Shown in pieces: positions 10,483 through 24,812 of a DNA stretch of 33,094 nucleotides. The notes beneath the pieces were generated by a model. It saw nothing but the letters and a program-made list of their open reading frames with translations. It was not told where the DNA came from and did no database searches. The stretch comes from Holophagales bacterium. Its GTDB lineage: Bacteria; Acidobacteriota; Holophagae; Holophagales; Holophagaceae. Numbering within the stretch: the stretch's first letter is position 1; each line of letters starts with the position of its first letter. The translations under genes were made by a program, and so were the position numbers. The DNA is taken from NCBI GenBank assembly GCA_031273105.1, contig JAISSN010000108.1, positions 1-33,094 on the forward strand, read 5' to 3'.

Positions 10483-11481
10483 ATGGATTGGGTTCAATGG
10501 ATGGCTGACCAGCACATAAAGGCGATGATATTCGCAATCGCTGCCGGCGCTCTCCTGCCATACCCTTTGATTGCGGCCCAGAGGCCCGGAAGGGGGATAA
10601 AGCCGTGGTGGACTACCACACGGTTTCTTACCTGGATAGGCCTGGTTGCGGCAATCATTGCTGTAGCCACCGGTCAATTCCTCGCTAAAAACCTGGGGCT
10701 TTTGAACAACGGATGGATAATCCGGGATGAATGGTCTGATTTGCGCATTCATCAATATCTCGGCGGGGCCGCTGTTTTTCTTGGCTACTTTTGCCTCCGC
10801 GCGGTTCACGCCCACAGAAAAGAGCATCAGGGCCTGGGAACTTATGCCCTTGTTACAGGGTTGCTTTGGGCAGTGGTGTCTATAAGCGCGGGGCATTATG
10901 GACTCAAGCTGGCCCGCCTCCGAAACGCGAAAGTGCCGATGGTAGCCCAAGCGCAGGCGCGGATACAGCCCGAGTCCGAGCCTGACGCAACCCTTGAGCA
11001 GGCAATCCGTAGCAGGCGGATCGTGAAGATGCTGGACTACGCCGCGCTTGTGCCGGTACACCCGGAGCCGTTCAGGAGTCCTGCCCACAAAAACAGGTGG
11101 GTCAGGGTCTGGGTGAGTCAACACGCGGTTGAGGCCTATAACAAGGGCGAATCGCTTCCCGCTGACGCGATGGTTGTCATGAACAGCGTTGAAGACCGCT
11201 GGGGACGCCCAGGCCATGAAATTGGCCCATTGTACTGTCTGGACACATTGCAGGGCGGTAAGCCCAGACTTGGCTTTTATTGGTCTAATGTGCCAGAATC
11301 CAAGCGAAACGAAGTCAGTGGCATGAAGAACGTCAACTGGTTAGAGCCAAATTCAAACCTGGCAAGCTGCGTCGAGTGCCACACGGCAGGTCTGTCCGCG
11401 CCCAATGCCAGATTCCGCCGTCCCCAGGCCCCAAGAAGGCCAAGCACTGAAGGCGAAGCGCCGGTGGGCAGCGGACAATAA
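10483..11481 (+). CDS. Integral membrane protein (about 4 TM) fused to periplasmic monoheme cytochrome P460-like domain
   Basis: Hydrophobic helices over residues 1-160. The C-terminal part resembles cytochrome P460 (NRWVRVWVSQHAVEAYNKGESLPADAMVVMNS...GFYWSN) and ends in one CVECH heme motif. Confidence 0.65.
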   Translation: MDWVQWMADQHIKAMIFAIAAGALLPYPLIAAQRPGRGIKPWWTTTRFLTWIGLVAAIIAVATGQFLAKNLGLLNNGWIIRDEWSDLRIHQYLGGAAVFLGYFCLRAVHAHRKEHQGLGTYALVTGLLWAVVSISAGHYGLKLARLRNAKVPMVAQAQARIQPESEPDATLEQAIRSRRIVKMLDYAALVPVHPEPFRSPAHKNRWVRVWVSQHAVEAYNKGESLPADAMVVMNSVEDRWGRPGHEIGPLYCLDTLQGGKPRLGFYWSNVPESKRNEVSGMKNVNWLEPNSNLASCVECHTAGLSAPNARFRRPQAPRRPSTEGEAPVGSGQ

Positions 11482-15501: not shown

Positions 15502-16358
15502 AACCAGAAACAGTTGAAAGCGCGAATGGCGGGAAATTATTAGTTTTAGACGTTGACGGCGTGTTGATTGACCCCTGCGGTAGCTTCGAGAAGTGCGCTG
15601 CCATGGCGCTTAATGAAATAGCCCCCGACCTTGCCTGGTCTGATGAGCTATATTGGCGATTCAAGCGTATTTCAGGCTTCAACAACGACTTCAGGCTGAC
15701 GGCGGCGGCTGTGGCGCTGTTTGAGGCGGGGGAAATAGACCATTTAAGCGAAGGGCGGATTGATTCCGCCCAAAGCGATCAGGGGTGTGGGGAAGCCGAA
15801 CCGCCTGTCCGCCGGAGGGCAGGCGGCGGGTCTCCCCACACAGCATTAAGCGAGATGCGCGATACCGGTTTCCCCCACTTGGAAAAGCGTATCGGGGAAT
15901 TAGAACCCCATTGTAAGGAGCGGGTTCAGTTTTACTACCAAAGCGTCAAGCATCTGGAGCGCCCATTGATAACGTACTCCGAACTGGAGGCCCTCAAGGG
16001 CTGGGACGTAGCTATATTGACAGGCAGGCCGCCGGAGGAGTTGACGCTGGCCTTTGAAGTGCTGGGTTTTGAACTACCTGCCGTTGGCGACACCTGCCCC
16101 GAATTCCGCAAGCCCGCTCCCGGCGGGTTGATACACCTGGCCGATACATTTAAGGCAAAGCGCGTCTATTTTGTCGGCGACACAACTGACGACGCAACGT
16201 GCCTGCGCCGGGCGCGGGAAGCCAGGCCGGACTTGGAACTGACCTTTGTAGCCGTGAACAAACTGCGGTTTGAAATAACCCAGCCGGAAGATTTAGCTTA
16301 CCCGGCGCTGAGGGACTTTGTTGCGTTTCTGCATCAAAATTGCGTTCAACAATCCTGA
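15498..16358 (+). CDS. HAD superfamily hydrolase containing in-frame palindromic insertion
   Basis: VLDVDGVLIDP (HAD motif I), VAILTGRPPEEL (motif II), FRKPAPGGLIH (motif III) and YFVGDTTDDATCLRRA (motif IV). TTG start overlaps the upstream stop. Confidence 0.8.
   Translation: MKPETVESANGGKLLVLDVDGVLIDPCGSFEKCAAMALNEIAPDLAWSDELYWRFKRISGFNNDFRLTAAAVALFEAGEIDHLSEGRIDSAQSDQGCGEAEPPVRRRAGGGSPHTALSEMRDTGFPHLEKRIGELEPHCKERVQFYYQSVKHLERPLITYSELEALKGWDVAILTGRPPEELTLAFEVLGFELPAVGDTCPEFRKPAPGGLIHLADTFKAKRVYFVGDTTDDATCLRRAREARPDLELTFVAVNKLRFEITQPEDLAYPALRDFVAFLHQNCVQQS
15744..15853 (+). repeat. Candidate small palindromic element with TTAAGCGA flanking direct repeats
   Basis: TTAAGCGA at 15744-15751 and 15846-15853, 102 nt apart. 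Between them are hairpin GGGCGGA/TCCGCCC (15753-15771) and a 57-nt hairpin (15785-15841). Confidence 0.7.
16323..16346 (+). repeat. Partial (left-half) copy of the TTTCTGnATCAAAATTGCGTT repeat
   Basis: gcgtttctgcatcaaaattgcgtt matches 24852-24875 at about 22/24 positions. Confidence 0.7.
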
Positions 16359-16401
16359 CGTGTTGCCGTTCTGTTGTATTGTTTCCGTTAAATTATCCGC
16401 T

Positions 16402-17826
16402 ATGAAAAACCATGCCCTGAAATTAATCGCCCTGCTTTTGTCCTTCTGCCTGACGCCGCTGACAGGCCAGGAGTACAGAAAGGGAGCGATACTTGACGGC
16501 GACAGGTATGGACAGACCGACGCCGAGCCCGAGCGACTCATCCTGGATTTGACCAACCTGCCCCGTTCGATATCCCTCAAGCAGTACAGCCCTGTTCCGG
16601 GAAACCAGGGGGATTACGACACCTGCGTCGGCTGGGCGACGGCGTATGCCGCCCTGACTATTTCTGAATCACTGGCTCTGAATAGGACAAACCGTGAACA
16701 GACGCAAAATAATGCCTTTTCGCCCATTTATGTGTACAAAAATATTTCAAAAGATCCAACGGGCCTCAGCAGCTCAAGAATACCCGACGCTCTGGATTTA
16801 ATGAAAAACAGCGGAATCGTCAAGCGGCTGCCCCTGGAAAACAAGATGACCTTTGAGGAAATTGATTTATCCATTTACGGCGCCGCCAGGCGATTTCCAA
16901 TATCGGGCTTTGTGCAGCTTTATTCAAACCCCCGAAACGAGCCTGGAGCAATCAGCGAAAGAGTTCCGCCGGTAAAAATGGGCCTGGTTGAAGGAAAACC
17001 CATTATCATAGGCATGAATACGCCCGATTCTTTTTTTAGCGCCAAACACGTATGGCGGCCAGAGGAAAGTCCGGCTAATTACTACGGCGGTCATGCCATG
17101 TGCGTGGTGGGCTATGATGACGACATGCACGGCGGCGCCTTTGAGGTTCAGAACAGTTGGGGAACGGCCTGGGGGAATGGCGGCTACGCGTGGATAACCT
17201 ATAGCGATTTTGCCGCCTTTGTCTATAGCGCCTATGAAATCACTGAAAATCTGGATGTCTGCGAAGGCTTAACCGCTGCTCCCCAACCTTCTGCTAATTT
17301 AGCTAAAGCAAAAGAACATTATGAAAAAGGCGATATTTTCAGGAAGAGAGGGGATTGGGACTTAGCCATTTTGGAATACAGCGAAGCCATAAGGCTCAAC
17401 CCCCATTACGTTGCAGCCTATCACTACCGGGGCTATATCCACGATGATCAAGGCGACTTTGACAGCGCCATAGCCGATTACAACATAGCCATAAGGCTCA
17501 AACCCGATAACGCCGTAATCTATCACAACCGTGGCTATGCCTACTGCAATAGCGGCGAATTTGACCGCGCCATAGCCGACTACAACGCAGCTATAAAGCT
17601 CAAGCCCGATTACGCTCTGGCCTTTCACAACCGAGGCAACGCCTACTATTATAAAAGCGACTTTGACAGCGCCATAGCCGACTACAACATGGCCATTAAG
17701 CTCAAACCTGATGACGCCGTAATCTATTACAACCGAAGCAACGCCCACAGGCAAAAAGGAAACCGCGCCCAAGCCGACGCTGACTATGCAAAGGCCAGGG
17801 AGTTGGGATGGGACTCTGTTGTATAG
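16402..17826 (+). CDS. Secreted C1 (papain-like) peptidase with C-terminal TPR repeats
   Basis: Signal peptide from ATG 16402. Papain-like triad contexts GNQGDYDTCVGWATAYA (Cys), GGHAMCVVGYDDD (His) and QNSWGTAWGNGGY (Asn), followed by about four TPR units. Confidence 0.82.
   Translation: MKNHALKLIALLLSFCLTPLTGQEYRKGAILDGDRYGQTDAEPERLILDLTNLPRSISLKQYSPVPGNQGDYDTCVGWATAYAALTISESLALNRTNREQTQNNAFSPIYVYKNISKDPTGLSSSRIPDALDLMKNSGIVKRLPLENKMTFEEIDLSIYGAARRFPISGFVQLYSNPRNEPGAISERVPPVKMGLVEGKPIIIGMNTPDSFFSAKHVWRPEESPANYYGGHAMCVVGYDDDMHGGAFEVQNSWGTAWGNGGYAWITYSDFAAFVYSAYEITENLDVCEGLTAAPQPSANLAKAKEHYEKGDIFRKRGDWDLAILEYSEAIRLNPHYVAAYHYRGYIHDDQGDFDSAIADYNIAIRLKPDNAVIYHNRGYAYCNSGEFDRAIADYNAAIKLKPDYALAFHNRGNAYYYKSDFDSAIADYNMAIKLKPDDAVIYYNRSNAHRQKGNRAQADADYAKARELGWDSVV
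17335..17800 (+). repeat. Tandem TPR-encoding repeats (about 102-nt period)
   Basis: Recurring gacagcgccatagccgattacaacatagccataaggctcaaacccga units; protein FDSAIADYNIAIRLKPDNAVIYHNRGYAY. Confidence 0.9.
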
Positions 17827-17937: not shown

Positions 17938-20676
17938 TTAAAACTTACTGTGTACTTTCTTGATATCGGCTATCTTGCCGCTTCCGTGGCAGAACAGGCA
18001 TCCTTCTGATTTCGGGAAGGGGGTGCGCGGCAGGGGGCTATCAGGGGTTACGTCTTTGTCTCTGCTGAGATCGCCGCGTCGGGCGTAGAAGTAGCCGCCA
18101 TTGGCCCTCATGTGCGCTATAGCCGCCTCACTATCATGGCATCCGGCGCAGGCGTGGGTTATGGGGGAATTGACCAGGTTATCCAAACCGCCATTGACTG
18201 CGGCGCCAGTTCCTGTAGCGGGGCCTGTGCCATAATTCCTGGTTGTATCAATACCATAGGTCTTCGGCCAGTTGGCATTAGGGGCGCCGGTTGCGGCTGT
18301 TGTCCACAGCAGGTTTGGCAGGGCGGCTTGGGATTGGGCATTGCTGAAATCATAAGTACCGGGCAGGTGGCACTGTTCGCAGTTATTCAAAACGCCAGGG
18401 TAACCGGCGGAGCCCATGGGTCTTCCGGCCAACGCGCCAGACGTCGGGTATCTCCTGTATTCATCCGTGCGCTTGCCGGGGGCGTGTATGGCATGGGCCA
18501 GATTGACCATATTACTTGACCAGCCATTGCCGTTTCGCTGTTGATGGCACGCGGCGCAAAGTGAAGGATCATTAGCCTGGCTGCTGCCATGGGCGCCGTA
18601 AGCTCTTAAGGGCAAGCTGGAGCCATACAAATCGTGGCAGTCGTTGCACTTATTAACGTCTGCTATGGAACGCCTGGCGGCATTACCTGTTATACCTCCA
18701 ACAAGAACGCGCTTGGAGGGGGTTACACGCTTGGCTATATGCCCGCCGGCAGTAGTATTGAAAGTTGCGGGCAAGTCGCCAGCTTGCACATAACCGCCTG
18801 TCATATAGCATGTAACCATTACAGCGCCAGCTTGAATAGCAGCTCCTGTAGCCGCGTCGTTTGTCGTAGCAGTCCAGAAACCATCGGCGTCGGGATTGGC
18901 TGAAAGCGTTCCCTGGTTACCGTTAAGAATATTGGCCAGTGAAACGCTGCCATAGTAATTGAAATCGGCTGGCGTGGGATTGCCGTCCTGGGGCCGCCCA
19001 TACATGATATAGAAGCTCGGGCCGCCAGTAAAACCGCTAGCCGCTGCCGGAAATGAACCGCTGTTTGTAATGGCTGCGCCGTTTTGCTTAATTCTGAACA
19101 CAATAGTAAGGTTTCCGTCAGCGTTTCGCGTAACGCTGCGGAGATCGTATTCAAAGTTATGCAATGCTATTTCAGGGCTAGTGGGGGACGTGGGGGGGTT
19201 GGCGTTATTATTTCTGGTTTTATCCCTGACGAGGTGACGGCCTATCTTGGCGGTTTGGGTTTCCGCAGAGACGGGGGCGCCTTTGATGGGAGACCAGTTT
19301 GCATAGGTTGACGCTCCATCCTCGTTGTGGCATTGCTGACAAGAACCAGTCTGATAAACGTGGCCCTGGCCTCTGTTAGTCCTATAGCCCAGTGAGCCAT
19401 CCTCGTGGCAAGCGCCGCAGGCTAACGCGCTGGGCTTTTTATACCAGTTGTCGCCCTGGGCGGCTGTTTCGCCTGAGGGATGTACTGTCCGGTGGCACTG
19501 GGTGCAGTTCTTGATATCCATTGGATAGCCAATTTCGTTGAACAAGACGCCAGCGTAATTGTAACCTTTGTTCACCAGCTTTTCGCCCATGTGGAGCGTG
19601 TGACCCAGGATGACCATGTTTCCCGCCGCTCTGTTGCGGTTTAACTTGTTAGTGGCGCCTGTGTAAGCTCCGTTGGTTAGTGTGGATTCGGCGTAGCCGT
19701 ATTTGCGTTGGTCTGTGTGGCACATGGTGCAATACCTGACGTCCCAGCGCGCTCCTTCATGAAAACTGTGTCCCAGCCTGCCGTGGCAATCGTTGCAGGC
19801 CGCTGTGGTGACTAATTCTCTCCCCCGGGGGTCATTGGGGGCTATTTTTTCGCCGGTTGCCGGTATGAAATCATAAACAAGATTTGCCGGCCCGAGAATG
19901 TTTATTGCCGGATAGACGGAAGGCTGTCCGTTTTCGGTATTGGGGGTTCGTCCGGTCCCCGTTCCGCGATACGCGCCTGCAACCTGGACTGTCATCCTGT
20001 GGATTACATTTGGATCGTATGTAACGTCATCCAGGTCTTCTTTTATTTGTGTCGTGCCGTTATATGTGAACGCGTCCAACTGGGCGTTGACCTGGGAAAT
20101 ATCCCTGCGGAATGTGTATTCGTAGCTGCCATCGCCATTGTCAACCAGCGCGCCTATATTATCGTAACTGGGGCGGCCCGGAGTCCATGTCGCCGTGTCG
20201 GTATTGTTAGAAGGAGTGGTCACTATATAATTGACCCAACGGCTTGGAGCCATCAGGACTCCGTTGGGCGAGTCTTCAGGGATCAGCTTGGCTATGCTAA
20301 AGGAAACGTTTGGATAGCTGGCGTAAGCCGTAGGGGAAGACTGGCTTGTCCAGGTCATGCCTGAAACTGGCGTGCCGTTTTCATCAAGCAACTTAAACCT
20401 GACTACCGGGACAGCCCCTGGCGTTTTCATGGTAACGCCTGTTACTTCTCCCTTCAGGCGCAACTCGCCCCATTGCTCTTTAGTCAGCGCCTTAGCGTTG
20501 ATGACAGTCCCAGGCGCTGGCGTCCCTGGTTCGCCTTGCGGGCCTTGTGTTCCATCTGAACCGTCTTTCCCATCAACGCCGTCTCGCCCGTCAGCGCCCC
20601 GACAACCGGCCAATACCATGGCCATCGCTAAGGCAACAGCAAAGCTGCCTATGGTTTTGAGCAACTTTAGTGTCAT
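17938..20676 (-). CDS. OmcA/MtrC family decaheme c-type cytochrome lipoprotein with N-terminal collagen-like segment
   Basis: Lipobox LAGC, GADGRDGVDGKDGSDGTQGPQGEPG, and ten CXXCH motifs (CNDCH, CTMCH, CTQCH, CGACH, CQQCH, CNDCH, CAACH, CEQCH, CAGCH, CLFCH). ATG 20676 is preceded by AGGGGGA. Confidence 0.92.
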   Translation of the reverse strand: MTLKLLKTIGSFAVALAMAMVLAGCRGADGRDGVDGKDGSDGTQGPQGEPGTPAPGTVINAKALTKEQWGELRLKGEVTGVTMKTPGAVPVVRFKLLDENGTPVSGMTWTSQSSPTAYASYPNVSFSIAKLIPEDSPNGVLMAPSRWVNYIVTTPSNNTDTATWTPGRPSYDNIGALVDNGDGSYEYTFRRDISQVNAQLDAFTYNGTTQIKEDLDDVTYDPNVIHRMTVQVAGAYRGTGTGRTPNTENGQPSVYPAINILGPANLVYDFIPATGEKIAPNDPRGRELVTTAACNDCHGRLGHSFHEGARWDVRYCTMCHTDQRKYGYAESTLTNGAYTGATNKLNRNRAAGNMVILGHTLHMGEKLVNKGYNYAGVLFNEIGYPMDIKNCTQCHRTVHPSGETAAQGDNWYKKPSALACGACHEDGSLGYRTNRGQGHVYQTGSCQQCHNEDGASTYANWSPIKGAPVSAETQTAKIGRHLVRDKTRNNNANPPTSPTSPEIALHNFEYDLRSVTRNADGNLTIVFRIKQNGAAITNSGSFPAAASGFTGGPSFYIMYGRPQDGNPTPADFNYYGSVSLANILNGNQGTLSANPDADGFWTATTNDAATGAAIQAGAVMVTCYMTGGYVQAGDLPATFNTTAGGHIAKRVTPSKRVLVGGITGNAARRSIADVNKCNDCHDLYGSSLPLRAYGAHGSSQANDPSLCAACHQQRNGNGWSSNMVNLAHAIHAPGKRTDEYRRYPTSGALAGRPMGSAGYPGVLNNCEQCHLPGTYDFSNAQSQAALPNLLWTTAATGAPNANWPKTYGIDTTRNYGTGPATGTGAAVNGGLDNLVNSPITHACAGCHDSEAAIAHMRANGGYFYARRGDLSRDKDVTPDSPLPRTPFPKSEGCLFCHGSGKIADIKKVHSKF

Positions 20677-20752
20677 GTCAGTTCCCCCTGGAAAAAAAGT
20701 CGTGAACAAGTGTTTTGGTGGTTGTGCATACGGCAATTCCGTAAGTTTTCAG

Positions 20753-21403
20753 TTACATGTGACATAGCGCGCCATTATAACAAGTGGGGCGGGTATTCGG
20801 CTCAGGCGGCGGCAATGCTGGTTTACGGGAGGAGTTTTCGCCTCTTGTGTGGCACTTTGCGCAGGCTGGCATGTTGACTTCGGCCGTCATGCGGTGTGAA
20901 ACATCGCGGCCTGTCCATGGCCTGTTTGGGTGAGGCGCTCTGGTATGGCAGGACATACACGAAACAGCTATGCCAACTCCTCTGTAATCTTCGCCGTGGC
21001 ATCTTTGGCATGAAGCAAAACCCGCAATGACGGCAGGGTTATCGCCTGGAGCGCTTTGCGCACTGTTTCTGCCGTGTCTGAAACTGTCGTCGTAGCCGGG
21101 AGTATGGCTCACGCCGTTGACGTGACAGGAAAAGCAACTCTTGCCCGAAACGCCGCCGGCCAATTCACTGCTTATAGCGGAGCCGTGGCAGGTTTCACAC
21201 TGGTTTGGCTTTGTCAAAAAGTCAGACCAGTGGTCATTTATATACCCCTGGGGATGTTCGCCCAATTGACCGTCAAATTTGGGGGCGTCGTCAACCCCAC
21301 TGGAACAGCCGGTAACAAGGAGCGCGGCTGAGAAAAGCAAAGCAGCAAATGCCGTTATGGCCGCCGACATCGCCAAGCCGCCCATCGTCCCTATTTTGTT
21401 CAT
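20753..21403 (-). CDS. Multiheme c-type cytochrome lipoprotein (5 CXXCH plus one CX5CH)
   Basis: Signal with lipobox-like VTGC. CETCH, CFSCH, CQRCH, CMSCH, CAKCH and terminal CYNGALCH. ATG 21403 preceded by GGAGAGGA. Confidence 0.87.
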   Translation of the reverse strand: MNKIGTMGGLAMSAAITAFAALLFSAALLVTGCSSGVDDAPKFDGQLGEHPQGYINDHWSDFLTKPNQCETCHGSAISSELAGGVSGKSCFSCHVNGVSHTPGYDDSFRHGRNSAQSAPGDNPAVIAGFASCQRCHGEDYRGVGIAVSCMSCHTRAPHPNRPWTGRDVSHRMTAEVNMPACAKCHTRGENSSRKPALPPPEPNTRPTCYNGALCHM

Positions 21404-21445
21404 TGTAAATCCTCTCCAGCCACTCATAAGCAATCCTACCTGTTT

Positions 21446-21919
21446 CTATCTATGACAAGCGCGGCAGCGGTCGTTATTGGCGCGGCCATGGCATTTGTAA
21501 CACGCCGTGGGATCTATTTTACCTTCTATGCGGTGCATGGTAATGTAATCGCCCCCGTGGGGAGATATTACATCGGGCCTGTTACCCTGTTTTAACGCAG
21601 GTTTCAACACTGTTTTGTCTGTGTGGCAGTCGGCGCAAAAGCTAACAGGGTGGCAACTGGCGCATACGTTGTTATATTGAACAGCCTTGGGGCCGTGCGC
21701 ATTTATGAAATCCGTTGTGTGGTTGAACTCGGCGTACGAGCGCACATGGTTTGTCATAGGCTCGTCGGCGTGGCAACCGGTGCAATCGGGGCGGCCAGCG
21801 CCAAGCTCCATGGGGTGGATGGCCGTAAAACTTGTCTCTGTTGAAACGAGCATACAGGCCGTGGCAAATATCAGAGCTAAAACGCCTGCAAGCGCCAGAG
21901 CAATTTTTTGGCGCGCCAT
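21446..21919 (-). CDS. Pentaheme c-type cytochrome
   Basis: N-terminal signal sequence plus CTGCH, CASCH, CADCH, CYKCH, CRACH. ATG 21919 overlaps the upstream stop (TGATG) with AGGAGG seven nt before. Confidence 0.88.
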   Translation of the reverse strand: MARQKIALALAGVLALIFATACMLVSTETSFTAIHPMELGAGRPDCTGCHADEPMTNHVRSYAEFNHTTDFINAHGPKAVQYNNVCASCHPVSFCADCHTDKTVLKPALKQGNRPDVISPHGGDYITMHRIEGKIDPTACYKCHGRANNDRCRACHR

Positions 21920-23376
21920 CACTTGCCTCCTTTAGGTGCAAAACCGAATTTATACTCAACCCGCAGTAAGCCCCTTGCCTCGTTCTTTGCCACAGATGTG
22001 GAGCCAAAGGCGAGGTCTGCTGAAATGCGCAGGTTTTCCGCTGGTTTAATGCCAACAGACGCTATGAATTCATACAGCTTTGACTGACCGTTTAAGTGCT
22101 CTTTGCTGTATTCGCTGTTGTCAAAATCATACTCAATACAGTCCAGACTGGCCGTGTACTTGTCGGAGCTATACATGAGCCAGGCGCGCGATTCGTGGTG
22201 GGAAAGGCTGTAGGAGGGCTTTAGGGGATCAACAAACACGACGTCAGATGTTTTTATGCGGTGATAGCTAAGGCCGGAAGCGAACTTTTTGGGGCTATGA
22301 GACATGCGCATATCAAAGCCAAAGCGGGTAGAATCGCCAAATGTCTCCCTGTGAATATTCTTATAGTCGGCTGTTATTTCTATGGGGCCGTCCTGATCGT
22401 CGGAGTCCAGATACGTGACGCTGGCGCCGTAGGAGCGGTGCTTGTCCTTTTCAAAGGTACTGAACAGGGACGGCATGTTTGAACCGGCGAAATATGCCTG
22501 GAAATTGCGCTCTACGTAGTTGGCCTTAGCGGAAAAGTAATTATTGAATTTGTATGACAGAGAATAGTCGTTTTCGGCTATCTTGCTGGCGTCGTCCAAA
22601 TCTGTGGGGCCAAACGTCCGGTCGGCTATGTCAAACACCGTGCGGCCCGTGAACATGAGCCTTGATATGGGGACAAAGATAATATCGCCGCCAATCAGCT
22701 TGCGCCTGTAGTCGTGAACATTACTATAAAAGAAATCACCGTCGTTGCGCGGCTGAGGCAGTGGAACCGGGTTGTCTGTCGGAATTGGGTTGTCATATTT
22801 ATCATAGCGTGATGTGGCCGTGCCGTCCTGCAGGAAAGAAACGCCTATCTCGCCCATTTTGGCAATGCGATATCCGAGGCGGGCGCCAAAGATTATATCC
22901 CGTTGCCATCGGTAATCGCGCTGTTGGTCGTGGTTTTGAACGTCGTAATAAACAGGGCGGCCGCCAAAGGCGGAAAAATTGAAGCCGCCTTTAAGGTCAA
23001 CGCGGCCGCTGACGCCGTCAATTTGTTCGTAACCAAGGCCGTGGTTGATGGCAAAGCGCCCTGCCTGAAGCTCACCGTTGGCCCTGTCAAAACGATAGCG
23101 CGCATAGCCGTAAGTGAGGCTGCCTGTGGTTTTGCCATTCAGCCTGGTTTGATCGGCCAAATCGAAATTACCCCACCCAAACAGGTGGAGCGAGAAGTTT
23201 TCCGTACCTAATTTAGTGGCGTCAATGCCCAGAAACTGCGTCAACGGCGCATATGTTCTTTCCAGGCCCGGAATGTCTTGCTTGTAGTACTGGGCGAAGG
23301 TCGCCGTGTACACATTGACCTCCTGCGCCCAGGACGCCGAGGAGACCAGTAGGACAAGCAGGGTCGTCTTTCGCAT
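21919..23376 (-). CDS. Outer-membrane beta-barrel protein, candidate porin of a porin-cytochrome module
   Basis: Signal peptide MRKTTLLVLLVSSASWAQ, alternating beta-strand pattern through the protein, ends EYKFGFAPKGGK. In operon with multiheme cytochromes. Confidence 0.78.
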   Translation of the reverse strand: MRKTTLLVLLVSSASWAQEVNVYTATFAQYYKQDIPGLERTYAPLTQFLGIDATKLGTENFSLHLFGWGNFDLADQTRLNGKTTGSLTYGYARYRFDRANGELQAGRFAINHGLGYEQIDGVSGRVDLKGGFNFSAFGGRPVYYDVQNHDQQRDYRWQRDIIFGARLGYRIAKMGEIGVSFLQDGTATSRYDKYDNPIPTDNPVPLPQPRNDGDFFYSNVHDYRRKLIGGDIIFVPISRLMFTGRTVFDIADRTFGPTDLDDASKIAENDYSLSYKFNNYFSAKANYVERNFQAYFAGSNMPSLFSTFEKDKHRSYGASVTYLDSDDQDGPIEITADYKNIHRETFGDSTRFGFDMRMSHSPKKFASGLSYHRIKTSDVVFVDPLKPSYSLSHHESRAWLMYSSDKYTASLDCIEYDFDNSEYSKEHLNGQSKLYEFIASVGIKPAENLRISADLAFGSTSVAKNEARGLLRVEYKFGFAPKGGK

Positions 23377-23404
23377 CAAAACCACCTCAAATCCAGATGT
23401 AAAC

Positions 23405-23433
23405 ATAATACAACAATGTGGTTACAATGTGAA
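23405..23433 (-). promoter_or_regulatory. Sigma70-like promoter for the cytochrome cluster with direct repeat in the spacer
   Basis: Minus strand TTCACA-N17-TATTAT, T-rich tract upstream. ACAATGTG is repeated at 23413 and 23424 (+ strand). Confidence 0.5.
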
Positions 23434-23756: not shown

Positions 23757-24812
23757 CTACAGCGGCGCGCATGAAACAATGTCCAGCCCAAAGCCTTTAA
23801 TCCCGATGTACCTCTTTTCCTGGCGCGTCAGGAGCCTCATTTTCGTGATGCCCAGTTGTCCAAGGATTTGGGCGCCGACGCCTACTTCCCTGTGCGTTGG
23901 GTCTAATACGGGTTCCGAGCCGTCCAAGGCTTGGCGGCGCAGAAAAACCAGCACGCCGCCGTCTTTTTGAATGGCCGTCATAGCCGCGTGAAAAGCTGAG
24001 CCTTCTATAATTCCGAAGCCATCCAAATCATCCGGCAGCGTTTCAACGTGTACCCTCACCAGGGGCGTTTGTTTTGTTATATCGCCCATTTGAAAGGCGA
24101 AGTGATAACTCTTGTCCAAAACATTCTGAAATTTGTGAATTATTATCCGTCCCCATTGCGTCTCTCTGGTATGAGTCTCCACGGCTTGAACTATTGGGTC
24201 TTTTTGCAGCCTGTAGGCCACCAGGTCGGCGACGGTGACCATCAGTAAGTCATGGGTTTTGCAGAATTCGATGAGGTCAAGTACCCTGGCCATGCTGCCG
24301 TCGTCCTTCATGATCTCGCAAATGACGCCGCTGGGATGTAGGCCGGCAAGCCTGGCCAGGTCAATGGCCGCTTCTGTCTGGCCAGTCCTGGCTAATACTC
24401 CCCCGGGGCGCGCCCGTAGCGGAAAAGTATGCCCTGGTTTAACAAAGTCGCCCGGTTTGGCGTGTTCGGAAATCAGGGCCTGCACCGTCCTGGCGCGATC
24501 CCTGGCGCTTATGCCCGTAGTGGTACCTTCCCTCGCTTCCACGGACACGCAAAAGGCTGTTTCAAAGGGGCTGGAATTGTCCTGTACCATTTGTGGAATA
24601 TCCAGGCGATCCAGTAACTTGCCTTCCAGCGCGGTGCAAATCAAGCCGCGACCAAAGGCGGCCATAAACGCTATGGCCTCGGGCGTGGCGTACTGGGCGG
24701 CGATGGTCAGGTCGCCTTCGTTCTCCCTGTCCTCATCGTCAACGACTACGACCATCTTCCCCTGGCCTATAGCCTGGATGGCGTCTTCAATGGTGGCAAA
24801 AGGTTCAGGCAA
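23757..24812 (-). CDS. 3,4-dihydroxy-2-butanone 4-phosphate synthase fused to degenerate GTP cyclohydrolase II-like domain (RibBX-like)
   Basis: N-terminal RibB motifs VVVVDDEDRENEGDL and HTFPLRARPGGVLARTGQTEAAIDLARLAG. The C-terminal RibA-like domain lacks the zinc Cys set. Confidence 0.88.
   Translation of the reverse strand: MPEPFATIEDAIQAIGQGKMVVVVDDEDRENEGDLTIAAQYATPEAIAFMAAFGRGLICTALEGKLLDRLDIPQMVQDNSSPFETAFCVSVEAREGTTTGISARDRARTVQALISEHAKPGDFVKPGHTFPLRARPGGVLARTGQTEAAIDLARLAGLHPSGVICEIMKDDGSMARVLDLIEFCKTHDLLMVTVADLVAYRLQKDPIVQAVETHTRETQWGRIIIHKFQNVLDKSYHFAFQMGDITKQTPLVRVHVETLPDDLDGFGIIEGSAFHAAMTAIQKDGGVLVFLRRQALDGSEPVLDPTHREVGVGAQILGQLGITKMRLLTRQEKRYIGIKGFGLDIVSCAPL

Follow-up and report, generated by a model that had tools for sequence, protein, structure and literature searches.

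Four adjacent genes lie at 17938-23376 on the minus strand of the window, by which we mean the whole stretch of 33,094 nucleotides that was analysed, and which is contig 97 of a 2.07-Mb Holophagaceae genome (193 contigs, 92.5% complete). With gene starts refined from ribosome-binding sites and homologues, they encode an outer-membrane beta-barrel, a pentaheme, a penta/hexaheme and a decaheme cytochrome, in that order (Table 1). An earlier note had listed these four genes on one strand, with the first two coupled by TGATG and with at least 20 heme motifs; all four are present as described, the coupling is an overlap of start and stop, and we count exactly 20 CXXCH motifs (0, 5, 5 and 10 per protein) plus one CX5CH. 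Shuffling the same proteins gives mean counts of 0, 0.06, 0.04 and 0.02, well under one per protein, and the heme sites of the operon are thus not chance occurrences. All three cytochromes carry a signal peptide and a lipobox. The region holds 9 promoter-like sites compared to 5.6 ± 2.7 in shuffles, so the one upstream of the barrel may be there by chance.

Table 1 Features of the four-gene cluster, with positions in the window.
Feature	Position	Strand	Remarks
Outer-membrane beta-barrel, 485 aa	21919..23376	-	Sec signal peptide; ORF extends to 23406; homologues in Holophagaceae and Geobacterales
Pentaheme cytochrome lipoprotein, 157 aa	21446..21919	-	Start overlaps barrel stop, TGATG at 21917-21921
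Penta/hexaheme cytochrome lipoprotein, 216 aa	20753..21403	-	5 CXXCH + CX5CH
CX5CH motif (CYNGALCH), putative non-canonical sixth heme site	20759..20782	-	Invariant in 24 aligned homologues
Decaheme OmcA/MtrC-family surface lipoprotein, 912 aa	17938..20676	-	TIGR03507, PF22113, MtrF match
Promoter-like site TTCACA-17-TATTAT	23405..23433	-	Just upstream of barrel; weak, consensus match only

Relatives at genus and family level, together with the named loci, put the genome in Holophagaceae, and the closest relative that has a name, Holophagales bacterium Coa324_bin7, has a barrel 66-67% and a pentaheme 78% identical to those of the window. Nasutitermitinae commonly harbour Holophagaceae, and a termite survey (PMC9137090) included Coatitermes among its hosts; judging from the sample name of this relative, the lineage of the window likely originates from a termite gut.

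The barrel of the window matches no family in Pfam or NCBIfam, be it a substrate porin, which the earlier note had raised as an objection to its own reading, or MtrB, whose model is matched by none of 30 barrel homologues either. Its AlphaFold model (pLDDT 78.6) has about 22 strands and no plug domain, and the best matches of this model in the PDB are general porins and other barrels with no specific relative, which shows only that the protein is a barrel. A barrel of about 22 strands has room for a plug of some 150 residues, which is about as large as the pentaheme. In a tree of barrel sequences, those from Holophagaceae fall into a single supported group within the Geobacterales sequences, which suggests a single transfer from the Geobacterales side followed by vertical descent, with a direction that is tentative because the tree is rooted at its midpoint.

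In the pentaheme, the five CXXCH motifs are matched by exactly five further histidines, all invariant across 52 homologues, so that bis-His ligation is expected and five bis-His hemes are predicted. A profile of this family aligns with 8-heme OmaB-like proteins over nearly the whole length (E values of about 1e-18 to 1e-20), including residues outside the heme motifs. The genes of these 8-heme proteins sit between those of a barrel and of a 10-12-heme cytochrome, and the proteins lack a lipobox. The alignments point to the pentaheme as a distant homologue of OmaB-like proteins and, taken together with a barrel match of about 1e-9, make it likely that the small cytochromes of the Ext-type and Oma-type conduits descend from one ancestor; homology between Ext and Omb-Oma-Omc-type complexes is not found in PMC6148476. 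An AlphaFold model of the pentaheme, built on a 34-sequence alignment, reached a pLDDT of 54 and was unusable, as is often the case for models without heme.

The third protein is marked by the putative CX5CH heme site at its C terminus. Across 24 homologues, the five CXXCH, the CX5CH and exactly six further histidines are all invariant, and as these histidines equal the six motifs in number, a sixth heme on CX5CH is the better reading and the protein probably binds six hemes. In doubled versions of the protein the CX5CH is doubled as well. A literature search for CX5CH heme sites returned no paper, from which it follows only that the papers searched do not use this term. Relatives hold the penta/hexaheme unit in the same operon slot in doubled or expanded forms with 10, 20 or 25 CXXCH: in a second Holophagaceae clade (L078, L085, L087 and L092) the third gene encodes a 25-CXXCH protein that starts with this unit, and Geobacter versions reach 20 CXXCH, in the manner of a modular repeat cytochrome growing by units.

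The last protein, described in the earlier note as a decaheme lipoprotein of OmcA/MtrC type, does belong to that family: it has ten CXXCH and matches TIGR03507 over the whole model (positions 5-672 of 672; E value 1.8e-121) with 406.8 bits, above the curated cut-off of 209.3. PF22113 is matched twice, and the MtrF structure (3pmq) with an E value of 3.6e-17. Only two cysteines lie outside the heme motifs, one in the lipobox and one isolated, and a cysteine inventory found the CX8C pair of MtrC neither here nor in about 30 Holophagaceae homologues. In MtrC, this domain III disulfide acts as an oxygen/flavin switch and protects Shewanella against oxygen (PMC9973256); its lack in the decaheme and its homologues would suit strict anaerobes. 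Just after the lipid anchor, the decaheme and its homologues carry collagen-like Gly-X-Y repeats (GTNGTNGTNG...; 20512-20601, minus strand, in the window), which are perhaps a tether between membrane and cytochrome.

Missing linkage between barrel and cytochromes in homologous neighbourhoods was the second objection that the earlier note had raised, and we found the opposite. The barrel gene lies directly upstream of the pentaheme gene in 51 of 51 loci (L047-L097) from at least three phyla; a stricter script recovers this adjacency in 41 of 44 Holophagaceae loci, the shortfall being due to overlapping frames. A member of the third-gene family comes next in all 42 testable Holophagaceae loci, and an OmcA/MtrC decaheme is the fourth gene in 31 of the 38 with enough DNA. 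In the remaining seven, the third gene is instead doubled (10 CXXCH) or expanded (25 CXXCH), and the three loci with the doubled form encode another multiheme cytochrome upstream of the barrel. The four-gene set is kept throughout Holophagaceae (Acidobacteriota), Geothrix isolates such as G. fuzhouensis and G. oryzisoli included; the pentaheme occurs in 33 of the 39 Holophagaceae sampled and, weakly, in 2 of 357 other genomes of the phylum. Given that barrel and pentaheme adjoin in all loci while the third and fourth genes vary, these two proteins make up a constant core with exchangeable outer cytochromes, which is the pattern of Geobacter conduits (PMC6148476). An apparent fusion of the barrel and pentaheme genes at locus L083 is an artefact, as the reading frame crosses an X (an ambiguous or masked base) at the junction.

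Homologues of the pentaheme are also found in 116 of 141 Geobacterales genomes, where we distinguish three types of cluster: a barrel and pentaheme with a relative of the third gene of up to 20 CXXCH; an OmcA/MtrC decaheme, barrel and pentaheme with a 3-4-heme protein; and a shorter barrel with an 8-heme and a 10-12-heme protein, which fits Omb-Oma-Omc. Downstream of the Geobacterales barrel and pentaheme pairs lie surface cytochromes of 3-20 CXXCH, and in several clusters an OmcA/MtrC decaheme is encoded just upstream of the pair. A comparable arrangement of barrel and pentaheme with other surface cytochromes has been described for the ext clusters (PMC6148476).

The earlier note had likened the layout to porin-cytochrome (Pcc/Mtr) conduits, of which the conduit part is supported and the Mtr part is not: the nearest known relatives are the Geobacter Ext-type pairs of barrel and pentaheme. 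As in Ext (extABCD, extEFG), a barrel lies directly beside a pentaheme lipoprotein and is followed by a further cytochrome, and both are homologous to the Geobacterales pairs, the kinship being judged through these relatives rather than through ExtB/C/E/F of G. sulfurreducens themselves. Unlike in Ext, the third gene encodes a single 5(+1)-heme unit and the decaheme comes last, and neither the window nor the Holophagaceae clusters encode a dodecaheme periplasmic ExtA/ExtG, although extBCD clusters without extA nearby have been noted (PMC6148476). The Omb-Oma-Omc (Pcc) conduits of Geobacter share the succession of barrel, small cytochrome and larger cytochrome, but homology to them is distant: the OmbB-like barrel is matched weakly, at about 1e-9, OmaB is soluble with 8 hemes whereas the pentaheme is a lipoprotein with 5, and an OmcA/MtrC decaheme takes the place of the 12-heme OmcB at the surface. 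With MtrCAB of Shewanella, the locus shares a surface decaheme of the same family (TIGR03507), here without the CX8C disulfide; membership is rejected as the barrel is not of the MtrB family (about 22 compared to 26 strands) and an MtrA/DmsE-type decaheme periplasmic cytochrome was found neither in the window nor in the rest of the assembly. The conduit of Holophaga S7 comes from the same bacterial family and has the same porin family by the profile of the paper that reports it (PMC7399161), to whose text, which gives no sequence-level description, our comparison refers. That ExtB/E-family conduit was stated to be the first likely one reported in Acidobacteria, and homologues of extEFG are reported to be expressed by a Holophaga genome (PMC11748539). 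The kind of conduit is therefore already known, and the anatomy described here is a variant of it; the variant architecture that the earlier note had proposed for this putative conduit is supported by the conserved linkage and by the homology to Ext-type pairs.

Taken together, we consider it fairly probable that the four genes are one transcription unit for an outer-membrane electron conduit of the Ext kind, as predicted from sequence, in which the pentaheme plays the role of MtrA or OmaB. The wide, plug-less barrel would hold the small pentaheme lipoprotein, which would most likely supply the heme chain across the membrane, as the decaheme MtrA or the octaheme OmaB does elsewhere. The penta/hexaheme lipoprotein would carry the chain on at the outer face, and the decaheme would end it as a surface reductase whose acceptors are minerals, humics, flavins or a partner cell. 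Electrons would most likely flow outward, as respiratory electrons leaving the cell. Co-transcription, complex formation, the cytochrome that occupies the barrel, the direction of flow and the substrate are all parts that we infer.

The earlier note had remarked on the absence of an 8-10-heme partner of MtrA or OmaB size, and this holds beyond the window: no such periplasmic protein is encoded in it, and the rest of the assembly (about 92% complete; pattern matches on contigs 1-137 were checked for in-frame neighbours and contigs 138-193 were read) yielded no other protein with at least two CXXCH. Cytochrome c7 profiles match in this operon only, and a three-motif cluster on contig C51, considered as another multiheme cytochrome, lies in no open frame. 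The small partner appears to be a trait of the family rather than the sign of a missing gene. Since no other multiheme cytochrome was found, one of the three in the operon has to cross the membrane if the conduit works, the strongest candidate being the pentaheme with its relation to OmaB. Of the very few candidates for c-type heme outside the operon, one is a 332-aa membrane protein at 10483-11481 (plus strand), whose single CXXCH (CVECHTAG) is C-terminal and which Pfam does not match at 1e-3; it is conceivably an electron carrier or enzyme. The genome encodes System II cytochrome c maturation as a ResB-CcsA fusion.

A stronger version of this reading would make the locus the smallest known conduit, with the pentaheme spanning the membrane within the 22-stranded barrel and with no 8-12-heme partner, the CX5CH hexaheme extending it, both forming the complete multiheme set of a termite-gut-type bacterium together with the decaheme, and an inner-membrane donor of an unrecognised kind; we regard this as possible but doubtful. 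In our view unlikely is a conduit in which both small cytochromes sit on the outer surface while the route through the barrel is completed by a periplasmic protein that either is not linked to the cluster or is not multiheme. Both small cytochromes have lipoboxes, and the pentaheme in particular may lie outside rather than inside the barrel because the annotation of its counterparts in Geobacter is that of lipoproteins on the outer surface; likewise, ExtC and ExtF, which are also pentahemes, are predicted to be lipoproteins of the outer membrane and to have a periplasmic dodecaheme as a separate partner, whose gene in some cases lies elsewhere (PMC6148476). Against such an arrangement stand the homology of the pentaheme to OmaB-like proteins without a lipobox and the search of the assembly, which yielded no further protein with at least two CXXCH.

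None of the four genomes of the genus has PF03264, the NapC/NirT-type quinol oxidase family of CymA/ImcH, whereas all eight other Holophagaceae tested do, and ImcH has been reported for Geothrix (PMC6295460). With neither PF03264 nor a periplasmic multiheme carrier, no complete chain from quinol to conduit is seen, and the conduit is either fed by an unrecognised donor or on its way out. The latter would make it a relic that worked in a free-living ancestor and is being lost, after its donor and carriers, by a host-associated lineage with a reduced genome (2.07 Mb compared to 3-5 Mb in most Geothrix-like relatives). The barrel is indeed missing from one 94%-complete genome of the genus, but two of the four genomes are only 64-69% complete, all four genes of the window are intact, and dN/dS values against the sister genome, rough as synonymous sites are near saturation, are 0.06 for the pentaheme, 0.13 for the barrel and 0.18 for the decaheme (synonymous changes in the penta/hexaheme gene are saturated and give no figure). 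Such values indicate purifying selection and speak for a module that stayed in use, at least up to the split of the two lineages, which leaves a relic rather improbable. Least credible is an ordinary substrate porin that adjoins respiratory cytochromes by chance, with no electron path across the membrane: its best fold matches among general porins show only a barrel, the barrel of the window matches no substrate-porin family, and the linkage to the pentaheme in 51 of 51 loci from at least three phyla disfavours it.

Geothrix and its relatives respire iron and humics, but the literature searched contains no genetic work that settles how their outer membrane is wired; the four-gene module is a candidate for it that is conserved across the family and present in named, growable isolates. 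Should the pentaheme alone span the membrane, it would lower the known size limit of protein wires through an outer membrane and offer a smaller part for bioelectronics. With these three as its only multiheme cytochromes, a genome would present electron export in a naturally minimal form, suited to a hunt for the inner-membrane donor, and in termite hindguts the module would be a sign that a resident bacterium respires humics or iron.

The genes that flank the four-gene unit are not conserved and differ even in a relative of the same genus. Directly upstream, at 23757-24812 (minus strand), the window encodes RibBA (riboflavin synthesis), which is suggestive of flavin shuttling; as a flavin-secretion partner of the operon it was rejected because the adjacency is not conserved in relatives. 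Convergent with the operon, at 16318-17826 (plus strand), lies a gene for a papain-family (C1) peptidase fused to TPR repeats. Among the Geobacterales relatives, five loci (L152, L153, L154, L156 and L173) encode a heme-free protein of about 930 aa after the barrel and pentaheme cluster and, also downstream, a giant 31-37-heme cytochrome of 1600-1800 aa.
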